From positions 62,001-126,000 of the forward strand of contig JAPJBO010000178.1 in assembly GCA_030068145.1 (NCBI GenBank): a stretch of DNA of 64,000 nucleotides. Direction: 5' to 3'. The translations under genes and the position numbers were made by a program. Under the pieces are notes generated by a model that saw only the letters and a list, made by a program, of their open reading frames with translations, was not told the DNA's origin and made no database searches. This document shows, in pieces, positions 17,552 through 24,142 of the stretch. This DNA is from Diplonema papillatum. Lineage: Eukaryota > Euglenozoa > Diplonemea > Diplonemida > Diplonemidae. Position 1 is the stretch's first letter. Every line of letters begins with the position of its first letter.

Positions 17552-17595
17552 CCTTCCAAGTATGACGAAGGTTCTAAAGGAAGAAGTAGAATTTA

Positions 17596-17599
<4 letters not shown>
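17552..17599. repeat. Target-site duplication, LINE 3' side (48 bp)
   Basis: This 48-bp segment, beginning CCTTCCAAGTATGACGAAGG, recurs without a mismatch at 24095-24142. The copies abut the (TC)n tail and the 5' end of the LINE, as expected for target-primed reverse transcription. Confidence 0.95.

Positions 17600-17668
<69 letters not shown>
17600..17668 (-). repeat. (TC)n microsatellite tail of the LINE
   Basis: About 34 TC units in element sense close the 3' end and abut the target-site duplication. A similar GA/TC run accompanies the truncated relative at 49467, so the tail appears to be a feature of the family. Confidence 0.85.
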
Positions 17669-17735: not shown

Positions 17736-20700
17736 CTACGGCGGGCGCAAGTCGTTGCGCCGTGGGCGCGGAGCGAGCCGTGGCCCTGTCAAAGATGATT
17801 GTTGCACCGATGGTGGCGCAGCCGGGGGCGTTCTGACTGGCGGACGAGACCGCCTGGCAGGCGTGTGTTGGCACGTTGTTTCGCGGGCTCTCCTCCTTTT
17901 GGCAATAGCCCGCCCTATGGCGGCGGCTAGCATCTTGACAGAGAATCTCAACTCCCACTGAACAAAGGGTACGTCGTGCGGATATTCAGGCACGGCATCG
18001 TTCCAGCTGTTACGGGCGCAAATTGTTTCCAGCTTGCCCAACATCCACTCGGTCTTCCGTCCAGCCGCAAAGCGTGGGCGGTGGGTACAACCCGGCATAG
18101 CCGGCGCACCAAAACAGCGGAGGGAACAGACCCCCTGCCGCCACTTCCCAGGGAAGGAGGCGACTCCTGAGTCGGCGCAGCACAGGTCGTTGATAGCTCG
18201 CATAAGGTACCCAATTTGCAGCCCCTTCTCGGCGAAGGTTCTCCCTGGGAGCTTCGAACGCGTAAATGCCTCAAAATCAAGCGCGAGTTCCACGCCTGTC
18301 GTCGGGAGAGGGTTGGAGCTGACCCATGATAGACTCCGCAGCCAGAAGACCAACGTCGCTGCGAAGCGGGTTCCGATGTTGGTCGTTAGCAACTTACGAC
18401 TGTCCGTTGCTAAGTGTACGTCGTATTTCGTCGACGCACCTGAGGCGAGTTCCCAAGGGCGTGTTGCCGCAAGGCTCCGCTGCGCCTGCGCCATCTCGAT
18501 TGAGATCGTACCGATCAGCCTCTGGATCTTCTCCAGGAGGTCAGGAGGGGTCCCGTAGGGGGGTATCCCTCTAATGCACAAGCACTGGGGCATGTCCCGG
18601 ACCATCGCCTCAGCAATGCAAAACCGGGATCGCAGCTCGTTCCATCTACAACCTGGGCCCGGACATTGCCAGTAGTAATGCCACAGGGTCCCCGTCGCAC
18701 CGCTGTCGCAGAACTCGCAGTCGCCGCTCCCCGAACCCCACTTCCTGCGGCACCATTCCCGTGAGTACACCGCTCCCCCAATACATCGACTGATCGCGGA
18801 ACTCAATTTGTGGTCCGTCGCGCGGTTCAGCCAAAGCCGATTCATGGCGCGTACGTCCACCCCTCCTTCGATTCCGTCAAATCCTTGTCTCTGTGTGGTC
18901 AAGTAACGCCACGCGCGCAGACGCAGGCCCTCACGAAAGAGGTGTGGGGCTTCTTTTCCGAGTAGCGACACGGGAGTCCCGTCGAAGGACAGGGACTGGA
19001 AGCTGTGCTGCGTGGCCCGTAGGAATCTTATCTCCCGCAGAAGATTAGCCATAAGACCTACGGGACCCTTGATAGACGAGTCGGCTCCCACGCCAAGGAG
19101 AGCGTCCATCCTCACCCGAAACCTCTCTTTCCCGTATTGTTTCACGAACGTGCGGAATAAGCTGAAACCTGAGGCGCATGCCGGATCACACAGGTGTGCT
19201 TTTGCAACCAGGGAGAGAACCGCAAGAGGGCTCTTCGCCCGGTTAGATCGAGGGATCACGCAAGCGGAGAGTGCCGTTCGGAGCGTTGAGCTGTTGACGA
19301 AGCCACCTGTTGTATTCGTGCAGTAGGCCGCCCCGTAATACGCGGAGGCTGCGATCGTCTGCATTATGCGGAACTTCGTGCGATGCATGAGCGGCGCCGC
19401 CTCAAGTCTGGCCGCGGCCTCGACCGTGGCGTTGGCCCTGCGGTTGTCAACGGGTCCCTCTGTGCCCAGGGGGACACCCAAAACCTTCACTATTTTGCTC
19501 GATCGAATTATTTTGCGACCGATCACGAGGCGAGGAGGCTCTGGGGACGTCGAGAAGGAGACCGACTTGTCCTCGTTGAGGGCAAAGCCTGTCAGGCTGT
19601 CGAACACCTCTGTGGTTCGAATTCCCTCTTGGAGTAGCCTCGCAAGTTGCGACAGCAGGTACAGATCGTCGGCGAACGACTTCGGACTCACCCGAGCTCG
19701 GCTGACCAAGGCCTTCGAGAGAACAGAGAGGAGCGCGTTGATCAGGACCACTGATATCGGGCAGCCCTGGAGAATTCCGTTGGTGACAGTGAACATCTCG
19801 CCGACTCCCAAGGGGTACCGGAAGCGACGCCTCAGGTGCTTGTATATGTGGCGTAAGGGTGCCAGCACACGCTCGTGAAGCCCAAGCGCCTCCATCAAGT
19901 CGAGCACCAGGGCCTGAGGGACGCGGTCAAAGCACTTGGCAAAGTCGAGTGCGACCCCGCACAGGGGTGTACCGTTTGTCAGTGATTCCTCTATCGACAG
20001 GGCGATATCCATGACCACGTCGTCGCAGGAGTGGCCGTGCCGGAAACCATGTTGCGACCCGTGAATCCATAGCTCTTGCCAGAGCATGACATCCTGTAGG
20101 CGCACGCTAGCCCAGAGTCGGTATACCACGCTCGAGACAGTAATCGGACGCAGCTTCAGTGGATCACTCCCTTCTCCTTTAGGAATTAAGGTGACCATTG
20201 CGTCCAGGACTCCGTCGGGCCAGAAGCCGGTTTCCTCTACCTCGTTGAGCACCGCGACAAAGCTTTCCAGGATTGCATTCGGCAGAACGGCGATTTCACG
20301 CATGCGCCAGCCGTCGACACCGCAAGACGTCTGTACGCTCTTCTTTTTCGCCACCTGACGAAGCCGCTCGGCCGTGATCGGATTTAGATTGCATGGGTGT
20401 TGCGTGATAAAGTCTTTGTACTCCTGGAAGAAAGGGGCAAACTCGGGTTCCCTCTTCTCGGCGTACATGCGGAGCACTGGATCCCAACTCCTCCTCACCA
20501 ACGCGTCAACTTCTGCCAAGTTCGCAGTGAGCCGCCCATCGGCCCCAGTTACAAACGATAACCCCGATGGCGCGTCTTTCTTCACCCAAGCGAACGATTC
20601 CTTCCCCAGGGGGTCGCGAAGCTCCCGCTGACTCCTCGCGCTCTTCAGGTATCTCGAAGTTAGCGTGCTATGCGCCAGGTCACGACACAGTCCTGAGACG

Positions 20701-22115
20701 GTAAACGCGAGGCCTCTTCCGATTTTCGCTGACGGCGGCTCGGGTGGCAGAGCACACTTCCCATCCGTGCGCAGCAACACGAAACTTCGAAAGGAGCGTA
20801 TTTTCGTCCACTGTCCCTCAAGCTGGAAGGGCAAAGGGCCAGGGGAGACGATTGTGCTTTCCCATTTGGCTCTGGCGGCTGCGTACTCCCGTATGCGCCC
20901 AAGGAGACACCTGGCTCTCTTCAAAGAAGCTGTATCGGCTCCCGCACCTTCAGGGGACGGCCTCGCCGATACTCGCTGAGAGTTCAATTCCCGACGTACG
21001 CCACGGCCACAGTACCCGGTTAGGTTGCCTTCGATTCCGGATTTGAGGATGAGGTACTCTTCCGCAGCTCGCGAAGTCCGTTGCCAGAGGAAGTTCACCC
21101 GGGGGCTACCTTCGAGCCCGGGGGGGCAAGGGTCCCCGAGGCGGTACTTCTCAGAGACGTTCCGGAGGGCATTCGGGTCGTCCAGGCCGCTCAGCCCGGT
21201 GCTTGGAATTGCCCGGGGGTACCGGAGTACCGGGTTCAGTTGTTGGAATACTGCAAGATTAAAGGTGGCTCGGACCGCCTTGTGCGTAGGGAGGCCGGCT
21301 TCGAAAGTCTCCACGCGACCGAGAGCGGCAGAAGCGACTTCGTTGGTGAGAAGAAGGTCGATGCGTGACGGCTGACCGTGGTAACATGTAAACTCTGCAG
21401 GACTTCCCAGGGCTTCAGCTTGCAGCTCGGCAGAGTCCGACCAGCCGTTGCGCAAGGCGAATCGGAGCGCCGGGGAACCGAGGGGGGTCGTGTTGAAATC
21501 GCCGGCGGCGACAAGGGGCACAGCACCCAAGCGCTGGCGCAATCCCCACAGGGATCCCTCGATCAACCTTTCCCGCTCGGGTTTTTCGGAAATGCCACAG
21601 TGACCGTACAATGACACCACGTGTACGGCTCCTTTACCTACACCTGTCGCGACACGTACATGCAAGAAGCGGGCCGATTCGTAGGCACGTTGCTCGGCTG
21701 CGTCAAAAGGCTCGACGATACATGCAGGCAAGCCTTTCTTGACGAAAATCGCGACTCCTGCACTACCTCCTGTAACCTGGGATGGGACGCTGTTGCCGCA
21801 CTTCCGCCCAACACAGCAGCTGCCGAAGAAGGGTTGCCATACATCAAGGGCGCCGGCTTGTTTCAGGGCCATCCGGATACTTCTCTGCCCGGCACTCGTC
21901 AACTTCGTTTCTTGAACACAGATGATGTCCGCCGCTATGCAGATGAGGAGGTACAGGTTCTTCATCAAGGACGTGACATTTATAGTCACAATTCGAATTG
22001 GTGGAGGGCCAGGGTTGGGTTCGATACCTTGAGTCACGAGAAGCGCGTACGCTACGAGGGCCAGATAGAACTCTCTCGTCGGCTGGGGGGACAAATCGTT
22101 GGCGTGGATCACCAT
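17736..22115 (-). CDS. LINE ORF2: 2A-like peptide, APE endonuclease, reverse transcriptase, Cys-His finger
   Basis: 1,459 residues. Residues 18-37 are a hydrophobic stretch ending GIEPNPGP, a 2A-like ribosome-skipping motif. The APE endonuclease follows: TINVTSL, CVQETKL, VVSLYGHCG, AAGDFNTTP and SRIDLLLTNE, with THKAV where 'SDH' is usual. The reverse transcriptase occupies about 640-950: LIPKGEGSDPLKLRPITVSS, SQHGFRHGHSCDD, GVALDFAKCFDRVP, GILQGCPISVVL, catalytic FADD and KVLGVPLG. After the RT comes CEFCDSGATGTLWHYYWQC, the Cys-Cys-His-Cys finger of many LINEs. No RNase H is seen. The start ATG lies within ATGGTGA, which also holds the ORF1 stop, suggesting termination-reinitiation. If 2A acts, it would release a short 36-residue leader rather than separate ORF1 from ORF2. 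Confidence 0.95.
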   Translation of the reverse strand: MVIHANDLSPQPTREFYLALVAYALLVTQGIEPNPGPPPIRIVTINVTSLMKNLYLLICIAADIICVQETKLTSAGQRSIRMALKQAGALDVWQPFFGSCCVGRKCGNSVPSQVTGGSAGVAIFVKKGLPACIVEPFDAAEQRAYESARFLHVRVATGVGKGAVHVVSLYGHCGISEKPERERLIEGSLWGLRQRLGAVPLVAAGDFNTTPLGSPALRFALRNGWSDSAELQAEALGSPAEFTCYHGQPSRIDLLLTNEVASAALGRVETFEAGLPTHKAVRATFNLAVFQQLNPVLRYPRAIPSTGLSGLDDPNALRNVSEKYRLGDPCPPGLEGSPRVNFLWQRTSRAAEEYLILKSGIEGNLTGYCGRGVRRELNSQRVSARPSPEGAGADTASLKRARCLLGRIREYAAARAKWESTIVSPGPLPFQLEGQWTKIRSFRSFVLLRTDGKCALPPEPPSAKIGRGLAFTVSGLCRDLAHSTLTSRYLKSARSQRELRDPLGKESFAWVKKDAPSGLSFVTGADGRLTANLAEVDALVRRSWDPVLRMYAEKREPEFAPFFQEYKDFITQHPCNLNPITAERLRQVAKKKSVQTSCGVDGWRMREIAVLPNAILESFVAVLNEVEETGFWPDGVLDAMVTLIPKGEGSDPLKLRPITVSSVVYRLWASVRLQDVMLWQELWIHGSQHGFRHGHSCDDVVMDIALSIEESLTNGTPLCGVALDFAKCFDRVPQALVLDLMEALGLHERVLAPLRHIYKHLRRRFRYPLGVGEMFTVTNGILQGCPISVVLINALLSVLSKALVSRARVSPKSFADDLYLLSQLARLLQEGIRTTEVFDSLTGFALNEDKSVSFSTSPEPPRLVIGRKIIRSSKIVKVLGVPLGTEGPVDNRRANATVEAAARLEAAPLMHRTKFRIMQTIAASAYYGAAYCTNTTGGFVNSSTLRTALSACVIPRSNRAKSPLAVLSLVAKAHLCDPACASGFSLFRTFVKQYGKERFRVRMDALLGVGADSSIKGPVGLMANLLREIRFLRATQHSFQSLSFDGTPVSLLGKEAPHLFREGLRLRAWRYLTTQRQGFDGIEGGVDVRAMNRLWLNRATDHKLSSAISRCIGGAVYSREWCRRKWGSGSGDCEFCDSGATGTLWHYYWQCPGPGCRWNELRSRFCIAEAMVRDMPQCLCIRGIPPYGTPPDLLEKIQRLIGTISIEMAQAQRSLAATRPWELASGASTKYDVHLATDSRKLLTTNIGTRFAATLVFWLRSLSWVSSNPLPTTGVELALDFEAFTRSKLPGRTFAEKGLQIGYLMRAINDLCCADSGVASFPGKWRQGVCSLRCFGAPAMPGCTHRPRFAAGRKTEWMLGKLETICARNSWNDAVPEYPHDVPFVQWELRFSVKMLAAAIGRAIAKRRRARETTCQHTPARRSRPPVRTPPAAPPSVQQSSLTGPRLAPRPRRNDLRPP
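22005..22064 (-). other. 2A-like ribosome-skipping sequence
   Basis: Codons 18-37 of ORF2 encode a hydrophobic Leu/Val/Ala-rich run followed by GIEPNPGP. The 2A consensus is D-[VI]-E-x-N-P-G-P, so only the leading Asp differs (Gly here). 2A-like sequences at ORF2 N-termini are known from trypanosomatid L1Tc and some animal LINEs. Confidence 0.75.
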
Positions 22116-23911
22116 TGTGACTCCGGGGGGGGGACGTCGGCGGTCGCCTGCGCGGGCGAGGGAGATGAAGTTGGCGGCGTGGCCCGCGACTTAGTCCAGC
22201 ATGCGTGACAGATTGCAGCCTGGCAGGGGCCGTGCGCGCAAAGCCGCTTGGCTTGTCCGACCTGCATGCCTTTGGCGCAGACCACGCAGAGGAAAGCTTC
22301 GGCGTTCGAGTGTGCTTCCTGCCAGCTGGTGTGCCGGCAGTCGGTGACCATGTTGTCCTTGCCGTCCACCCGTGCTAGCTTTTCCTGGGACTCAGTTGTC
22401 TCATCCTCTGTGCGTCCCCTCTTTTGGCCCGGAGACGGCTCGGGCCGTTCGTTGAGGCTAGCGAAGAACTCGGGTGGGAGTTTGACCTTCTCCCGCTGAC
22501 ACTGCGTGGAGAATCCCTTCCGTTGCCTCGCGTCAGTGGAGCGGTCGTATTTCCTTATCGAAATAGACGCGCGATCGAGCCGGAAGAACACGGGTGCAGG
22601 TGGGCCCGTGTCGGCGATGACGATGCACACGGTCTTACCTTGTCGCTTGAAGGCCCCGGCTTGTTCGACCTTCCAGCCGGCAGCAGCGCAGGCGGCAAGG
22701 AGGTCGGTCGCGTGTTCCGAAGCGCACGCGGTGGTGACCACGTATTTGTCGCCACGCAGTTGGCGCTTCGACAGCTTTTTTCCGACCGCGGATTCGGTGG
22801 CGGCAACGTGTTCCGGGGTCGTCCGAATGCCGAAGACACCCGTCTTTGTGCCCGCGATTACCCCGAACGTATTCGGAGTCAGTGCCGCCAGCCGTCGCGC
22901 CTCTTCAAGGGTGCAGTCACTCACCCACACCGCCGGCATGGTGTCCGTCCCGTTGACGAAGGACAAGGCCTTCCAGAATGTTCCGGCTTTGCCGGAGCTC
23001 CGCAGCAGCTTCTGCACGTCAACGATCGGGACGCGCACGCTCACCTCACACACCCCCTGCCGGCGGTGCACCTTTGTGAACACTGCGCTCCAATCCATGC
23101 GCAGTCCTTCCGCTTCTGCGGCCTTCTTCGCCATAATCCGCACAGATTGTGCGGCCTTCATCGCGGTATCCCAGGTGGCCGCGTGGACGTAGGCGGCGCG
23201 CACCTGGAACAGGCAAACCTGTGTCGTCGGCTGGAGGGTGTCGACTGCTTTGCAATGCACCGTGGGCAGGGCCAGGTTTTGGAACCGCGACCATACGTCC
23301 TGATGACCGCCGTCAGACAAGGTGACGAGGTGCCTCACCGAACCGTCCCACGGAACGCTGCAGACGACGGCAACCTTCGCTTCGGGGTAAACCGCGACGG
23401 TGTCGAGGGCCGCACCCCATGCGGATTCCGCATCTTCGACACTTGCAGCCACGAGTAGGCCGCCCTTTCCGCTCCTCAACTCGTCGGTAGACCCGACCTT
23501 CGCCACTTGCCAGTCATGGAAGACCATACTGGCCTTCGGACGGGTGCGGCGCGTCCTCTCCGACCACGTGCTAGGCACCTGCGGTTGCTTCGTCGATGTA
23601 GAGCGGCGCATCCTTTCCGCCCATGAATCTTCGGTGGAGGGGTCCGGTCGCTTCTCGGATACCGGTCGCTTATCGGACACCGAACGCTTCTCGGATACCG
23701 GAGGTCGAGCCTCTTGTGCCCCGGAGCCATGCGTCGAAGGGGGCGCGGGTTTCTGGGCGCCAAGCGGTGCGGGCGACGATCCGGCCATCCCTGTCTCGAC
23801 CAAGGACAGGATGACGTCTAAGATAGACAGCAGTTGCTGCCTCGTCTTTTTGTCATGGCACTTCCCAGCCAAGGCGGATGCCCTGGCGATCAGTGCGTCG
23901 ACGTCATCCAT
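22109..23911 (-). CDS. LINE ORF1: nucleic-acid-binding-type protein with C-terminal Cys-rich domain
   Basis: 600 residues from ATG (MDDVDALIARASALAGKCHD) to TGA. It has a helical N-terminus and a Ser/Pro/Arg-rich linker with a repeated short motif (SEKRSVSDKRPVSEKRP). A large middle region contains alternating strands and helices without a motif I recognise. The C-terminus is a RING/PHD-like cysteine-histidine cluster (FLCVVCAKGM, RLCAHGPC, AICHACW). ORF1 proteins of LINEs bind the element RNA; here that role is inferred from position. Confidence 0.85.
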   Translation of the reverse strand: MDDVDALIARASALAGKCHDKKTRQQLLSILDVILSLVETGMAGSSPAPLGAQKPAPPSTHGSGAQEARPPVSEKRSVSDKRPVSEKRPDPSTEDSWAERMRRSTSTKQPQVPSTWSERTRRTRPKASMVFHDWQVAKVGSTDELRSGKGGLLVAASVEDAESAWGAALDTVAVYPEAKVAVVCSVPWDGSVRHLVTLSDGGHQDVWSRFQNLALPTVHCKAVDTLQPTTQVCLFQVRAAYVHAATWDTAMKAAQSVRIMAKKAAEAEGLRMDWSAVFTKVHRRQGVCEVSVRVPIVDVQKLLRSSGKAGTFWKALSFVNGTDTMPAVWVSDCTLEEARRLAALTPNTFGVIAGTKTGVFGIRTTPEHVAATESAVGKKLSKRQLRGDKYVVTTACASEHATDLLAACAAAGWKVEQAGAFKRQGKTVCIVIADTGPPAPVFFRLDRASISIRKYDRSTDARQRKGFSTQCQREKVKLPPEFFASLNERPEPSPGQKRGRTEDETTESQEKLARVDGKDNMVTDCRHTSWQEAHSNAEAFLCVVCAKGMQVGQAKRLCAHGPCQAAICHACWTKSRATPPTSSPSPAQATADVPPPESQW

Positions 23912-24081
23912 ACTCGAATGAGAGCGGGGATGGACCCCCCTTCACGCTTCTCTTAGCTGATACTTATACTCGTTCTCTCTTTTTCTGATCTGATATCCCA
24001 CCACTTCTTTTTTCTTCACCCGAGGTGAATCCGGGCAGAACCCGGAGCCGCTTTCCTTCAAGGGTAGCCACGGCAAGCCAC

Positions 24082-24094
24082 CAATAAAGTACAG
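24082..24094 (-). other. Spliced-leader 3'-end remnant at the LINE 5' terminus
   Basis: On the minus strand the first 13 bases after the target-site duplication read CTGTACTTTATTG. This equals the 3' end of the spliced-leader exon as I recall it for diplonemids and Leishmania-type kinetoplastids (T. brucei differs by one base). Its position at base 1 of the element, at the junction, makes chance unlikely. The simplest reading is that the template RNA had been trans-spliced and reverse transcription stopped 13 nt into the leader. Confidence 0.8.
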
Positions 24095-24142
24095 CCTTCC
24101 AAGTATGACGAAGGTTCTAAAGGAAGAAGTAGAATTTAATAG
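24095..24142. repeat. Target-site duplication, LINE 5' side (48 bp)
   Basis: Exact copy of 17552-17599; it abuts the spliced-leader-like start of the LINE at 24094. Confidence 0.95.

Follow-up and report, generated by a model that had tools for sequence, protein, structure and literature searches.

Retrotransposons of the SLACS/CRE group insert into spliced-leader (SL) genes, and the LINEs that we describe here from Diplonema papillatum, a marine flagellate of the Euglenozoa, are likewise linked to SL sequence. Unlike SLACS/CRE, they take the spliced SL to unrelated sites; a fixed insertion site in SL genes was not seen, the flanks being unrelated in the loci that we read. The trypanosomatid L1Tc/ingi elements resemble them as euglenozoan LINEs with an endonuclease, a reverse transcriptase and a CGTG close to the 5' end. 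Yet, according to the available portion of the L1Tc study (PMC4748587), the RNA made from Pr77 is not spliced and has an HDV-like ribozyme as its 5' end, whereas the D. papillatum LINE has the SL in this position and no Rfam ribozyme match. We dropped an HDV-like ribozyme as the LINE 5' end because no Rfam HDV family matched, up to an E-value of 5, the 601 bases around that end, in a search that could miss a divergent ribozyme.

SL-tagged retrocopies are known already from dinoflagellates, whose retrogenes carry DNA-encoded relics of the DinoSL (PMC6050394, PMC12014239, in the portions available); TG was proposed as a non-canonical acceptor within these relics (PMC12014239, likewise in part). 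The retrogenes are host genes that were found by their relics, some of them in tandem, and the accessible text gives the mediating enzyme as unknown (PMC6050394, PMC12014239). The D. papillatum copies share with the DinoSL retrocopies, as these are described there, the DNA-encoded remnants of a trans-spliced leader, but here the LINE families themselves are SL-headed, and they have target duplications and end points peculiar to each family. SL-headed LINEs in D. papillatum are a new variant. No report of them was found in the open-access literature, searched by titles and abstract openings, and the D. papillatum genome paper (PMC10161547), in its consulted sections, mentions LINE ORFs and SL genes and draws no connection between them.

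Anatomy of the LINE and identity of its leader

The window, which is the 64-kb stretch of DNA that we analysed (contig C178:62001-126000), contains a LINE on its minus strand, from 24094 to about 17600 (Table 1). ORF2 holds an Exo_endo_phos endonuclease and a reverse transcriptase in a single ORF and the element has target-site duplications, as in APE-type LINEs, 8 of the 16 window-type copies tested having no convincing duplication. In ORF2, Pfam gave only RVT_1 and Exo_endo_phos, without the RNase H domain that marks L1Tc/ingi elements, and in ORF1 no match; PDB chains of LINE-1 ORF2p and R2 also match the reverse transcriptase region. In the sense of the element, the relic CTGTACTTTATTG is followed directly by GTGGC. 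The sequence-only reading had placed the start of this 13-mer where the duplication ends, and the two repeats are indeed identical over 48 bp, one of them starting at the base directly after the 13-mer (24095).

Table 1. Features of the LINE, in positions of the 64-kb window
Feature	Position	Strand	Remark
SL relic, nt 27-39 of the host SL exon	24082..24094	-	CTGTACTTTATTG, exact match to exon
48-bp target-site duplication, 5' copy in LINE sense	24095..24142	.	exact repeat
48-bp target-site duplication, 3' copy	17552..17599	.	exact repeat
LINE 5' UTR, start GTGGCTTGCCGTGG at the splice junction	23912..24081	-	similar starts in other LINE families
ORF1, 600 aa from ATG	22109..23911	-	homologues downstream of SL in other LINE families
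ORF2, open frame of 1484 aa, overlaps ORF1	17736..22190	-	
Endonuclease domain PF03372, ORF2 residues 86-286	21333..21935	-	E 1.6e-12
Reverse transcriptase domain PF00078, ORF2 residues 669-907	19470..20186	-	E 7.3e-19
(CT)n tail in sense, 3' end	17600..17668	-	length varies among copies

The SL exon was read from the SL RNA genes of the genome (L017, L027, L037, L038): it has 39 nt (AACCAACGATTTAAAAGCTACAGTTTCTGTACTTTATTG) and is followed by an intron of about 75 nt, counted to the T-run at which we chose to place its 3' end. Genes for 5S and U2 share three of these loci (L017, L027, L037). These exon and intron lengths, and the vicinity of 5S and U2, agree with the genome paper in the part available (PMC10161547). 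The reverse transcriptase region of the LINE is 100% identical to a D. papillatum protein. Because the genes give this exon, the 13-mer is its exact 3' third, nt 27-39; the exon of the organism terminates as had been predicted from the first bases of the LINE. The window contains the 13-mer once, also when as many as 2 mismatches are permitted, and the 271-Mb assembly has 944 exact matches (491+453), against 2 (0+2) for the reversed control. A 36-mer ending in SL plus GT gave 358 matches, SL RNA genes included, and none in its control. At one locus (L153, G000:C759:71300-71560), a tandem repeat has an SL, with 35 nt matched, every 81 bp.

Other copies, splice junctions and retained leader

We sought further 5' ends with a 27-mer (up to 2 mismatches) that covers two related LINE families with about their first 50 nt in common; it found 146, and none in the control. 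Exact TTTATTG lies at the junction in 130 copies, counted with a pattern that has a shorter element stretch and is not nested with the 27-mer, and in 93 of the first 100 ends listed of the 146 (window family and relative). The other seven are altered relics (L057, L180, L182, L062), the extended end of L150, and two copies with a relic no longer than 0-1 nt (L053, L181). Members of the window family (L041-L070) are 98.9-100% identical to the window element over the first 1.4 kb, except for L057, which aligns in two pieces; in the related family (L150, L005, L024) the ORF1 protein is 64% identical to theirs. Upstream flanks are unlike between sites, save for a few duplicated stretches. The comparison of other copies, which had been set beforehand as a test, showed that copies inserted at unrelated sites also start with this SL 3' end.

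Window ORF1, compared by tblastn with 33 loci, matched 3' of the SL at loci of the gtggctta family (L002, L004, L006, L011), the gtgtc family (L021) and family C (L001, L008), and at L014 and L007. The gttgt family (L019, L022, L026, L030-L032) had no such match within 1.5 kb, and its class is unassigned. One locus, L138, has the SL, 10 nt of LINE 5' end and then 3' UTR-like sequence, and is a copy with an internal deletion. Most gtgtc LINEs lie in or adjoin a GATTACACTC-like minisatellite (L101, L105, L126, L128, L133, L163, L164, L166, L178; exceptions L135, L142, L162, L170), which suggests a target preference of this family. Separately, a AACTCAATGCTTAAC-like sequence repeatedly precedes family C and some gtggctta copies (L001, L004, L100, L114, L120, L130).

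Unspliced genomic counterparts of the junctions were accepted if they matched over at least 30 nt at 90% identity or more, started at the junction base and had no exact SL before it. Fourteen junction 14-mers had such a counterpart, 12 of them with AG throughout. We excluded L062 and L106 (non-AG) and L109 (AG), whose counterparts themselves bear an SL, and two of the 12 AG junctions are variants of the window junction. At the remaining distinct sites, AG immediately precedes the junction in the unspliced counterpart in 10 of 10, the window junction being among them through L053/L149, where the AG may be due to chance, and L150. These AGs show that the SL was trans-spliced on before reverse transcription, as the sequence-only reading had proposed for the RNA template, and near-complete SL copies point the same way. 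Copies with the 3' portion of the SL at their 5' end and AG in the unspliced counterpart have the marks of SL-relic-tagged retrocopies; since a piece of the SL heads their 5' ends, the LINEs were re-copied into DNA from leader-tagged RNA.

LINE 5' UTRs contain two of the ten sites (L122, L130) and the unclassified gttgt repeat contains one (L111); in these elements, splicing therefore took place at AGs farther downstream. L122 combines its alternative AG with an SL of the 13-nt class. Further sites are in other repeats and transcripts. Neighbouring AGs of one CAGCAG were used at L093, L094 and L109. A looser list of counterparts, with rows below our criteria, has AG in L014, L094 and L146, and none in L016/L048, L025/L046, L095 (a low-complexity self-match) and L130/L001 (a deletion).

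The length of the SL was read at 76 of 100 listed 13-mer sites (of 944), all of which, by the way they were selected, have 13 nt or more. It was 13-16 nt at 32 sites, 18-34 nt at 11 and 36-39 nt at 33; in the last class, L017 is an SL RNA gene and L013 an SL RNA fragment. The distribution is bimodal, with peaks at 13-16 and 36-39 nt, and in the intermediate group L095 and L124 resemble near-full leaders with substitutions. The commonest long length is 38 nt (18 sites); besides L013 and L017, 39 nt was read five times, about the number expected from a chance A. By exact match, the whole assembly has five window-type 5' ends with an SL of 25 nt or more. Among distinct 13-mer sites, the short class makes up 12 of 13 in the window type, 7 of 8 in gtgtc and 4 of 6 in gtggctta, but 0 of 12 in family C, so that a stop dictated only by the SL does not suffice. 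Different reverse transcriptases or different promoters both fit this difference between families.

The SL is predicted to fold into a hairpin, TACAG-TTT-CTGTA (nt 14-17 paired with 32-35, nt 19-23 with 27-31; -5.1 kcal/mol, z -1.98), and the ends of the short class (nt 24-27) fall at its loop. Extra stutter-like CTGTA/GTACT units at the stop (L051, L118, L182, partly L096) suggest slippage there. The short class may reflect a stop of reverse transcription; in part, it may instead be a relic that is inherited and serves as the element's 5' end. For the cause of a stop, we infer that the template might refold at the predicted hairpin and displace the new cDNA end. The trypanosome SL has a pseudouridine at 28, which is not an exact fit to a stop at nt 26/27, and we prefer the predicted refolding to a base modification.

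Some copies, in other LINE families too, have the SL up to about nt 2, and the cases read are flush with target duplications: a 19-bp repeat abuts SL nt 2 in a 38-nt-SL copy at C1774, and a CCCTTC duplication the 38-nt SL at L005. This flush position argues that the SL was part of the inserted cDNA. The duplication score of 16 window-type copies was 84, whereas 2000 permutations averaged 55.6 and reached 75 at most; of the 20 copies tried, two continued beyond the end of the contig, and the 3' flank was unreadable in L057 and L063. The window copy was omitted because its 48-bp repeat exceeds the scored stretch (it scores 2). Eight copies score 5-9 (L046, L050, L053, L055, L058, L059, L062, L069) and eight score 4 or less (L042, L047, L049, L051, L054, L056, L060, L061), the latter counting against the explanation that we favour.

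Proposed mechanism and competing readings

Very probably, trans-spliced LINE RNA was reverse-transcribed into the SL and inserted flush with the target, and the same holds for other LINE families and for other transcripts. The LINE RNA would be trans-spliced like a host mRNA, with the 39-nt SL joined at an acceptor just 5' of GTGGC, as the junctions indicate. To judge from the anatomy and the target duplications, the LINE's reverse transcriptase would copy the RNA from its (CU)n tail in a target-primed reaction, and continue through the element into the SL. There it would presumably halt after 13-16 nt at the predicted hairpin loop, or reach about nt 2, short of the cap. The cDNA end would then be joined to the target, which would leave the SL piece flush with the duplication. 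Against this explanation, SL-bearing copies read TTG, not AG, before GTGGC.

Daughters could regain an SL either from rare acceptor-bearing sources that were missed or because the relic itself is sufficient. The terminal TG of the relic may be a candidate acceptor. We tentatively raise the possibility, which we do not favour, that the leader is a captured working part: the polypyrimidine-like relic with its TG end would be the element's own 3' acceptor, and the stop at the SL loop would keep what the next round needs. The relic would therefore be removed in each round and a fresh capped SL gained at the same base.

A form of the trans-splicing explanation compatible with it, but in our estimate rather unlikely, is that the SL-tagged daughters can no longer be trans-spliced themselves and all derive from master copies with an acceptor. 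Two AG-flush copies exist for the window 5' end, one per related family (L149/L053 and L150). L150 (G000:C645:69647-69673) keeps 27 extra nt before GTGGC, as an unspliced copy would, ending in CTTTGTCTGTACTTTAG / CTGTACTTTAG, then a 10-bp repeat; this 27-mer has one match in the assembly with up to 3 mismatches. The end looks like an SL relic turned AG acceptor, or like an unspliced copy, and over its first 107-108 nt L150 does not differ from five SL-bearing copies. Yet, over 1.4 kb its identity to L005 and L024, which have a full SL, is no more than 95.8-95.9%, and exact patterns found no AG-flush copy in three other families. None was found among 30 gtgtc 5' ends read either, all of which have an SL or, by eye, a mutated relic. 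L053, with no SL and a short TCAAG repeat, may have its AG by chance, and we dropped it as a certain master copy because of this repeat.

It is less likely still that the 13-nt relic is now heritable, with trans-splicing having occurred once or rarely. An internal promoter would start at CTGTAC, and most copies would therefore just repeat the relic. This accords with a sharp 13-16 nt class where CGTG lies 10-13 nt past the junction, which is +23 to +26 counted from CTGTAC and close to the Pr77 CGTG at +25 to +28 in trypanosomatids (PMC4748587, in the portion available). It also accords with the missing short class of family C, which has no CGTG there, and with the lack of AG at most junctions. 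But these families also have nearly full SLs at this junction, L122 has its 13 nt with no CGTG, and L138 has 15 nt ahead of a deletion that removed the CGTG. Moreover, in loci chosen by LINE sequence and not by SL, the relic mostly equals the current SL exactly. As for the window copy, its direct parent RNA may have been freshly trans-spliced or the carrier of an inherited 13-nt relic.

Template switching onto SL RNA, or a SLACS/CRE-like insertion beside an SL gene, would also set SL sequence next to the element; it is very improbable, as the junction is exactly the exon end, unspliced counterparts have AG, and the flanks read are unrelated and hold no SL RNA genes. A chance match, conceivable for the 13 bases of the window copy, has a negligible probability in view of the excess of genomic matches over the control and of copies with 38 nt of SL.

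With trans-spliced RNA as the template, several euglenozoan LINE families would be copied from such RNA, in contrast with L1Tc, whose published transcripts are unspliced. The insertions, which number in the hundreds, would form a fossil record of reverse-transcription end points on capped SL RNA (about nt 2 and nt 24-27). The expectation that SL tags could find and orient retrocopies genome-wide was borne out; they give the orientation, mark splice acceptors, and make the recovery of LINE 5' ends a directly testable question.

Leader sequences on contig C91

Contig C91 has stretches of 34-40% GC at about 16.5-36 kb (L009, L010, L159) that look virus-like; L159 matches DUF5767, a Dda-like helicase and a lipase. 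Two ORFs there have no Pfam match, one of 491 aa in a 4-copy tandem array and one of at least 355 aa. We first read the 1994-bp tandem array as SL RNA genes and rejected this. A complete DNA-encoded 39-nt SL precedes both ORFs (with one substitution at the 491-aa ORF), 30 nt past the start of a GAATTATCTTT motif, and the combination looks like a promoter with a built-in leader rather than a retrocopy.
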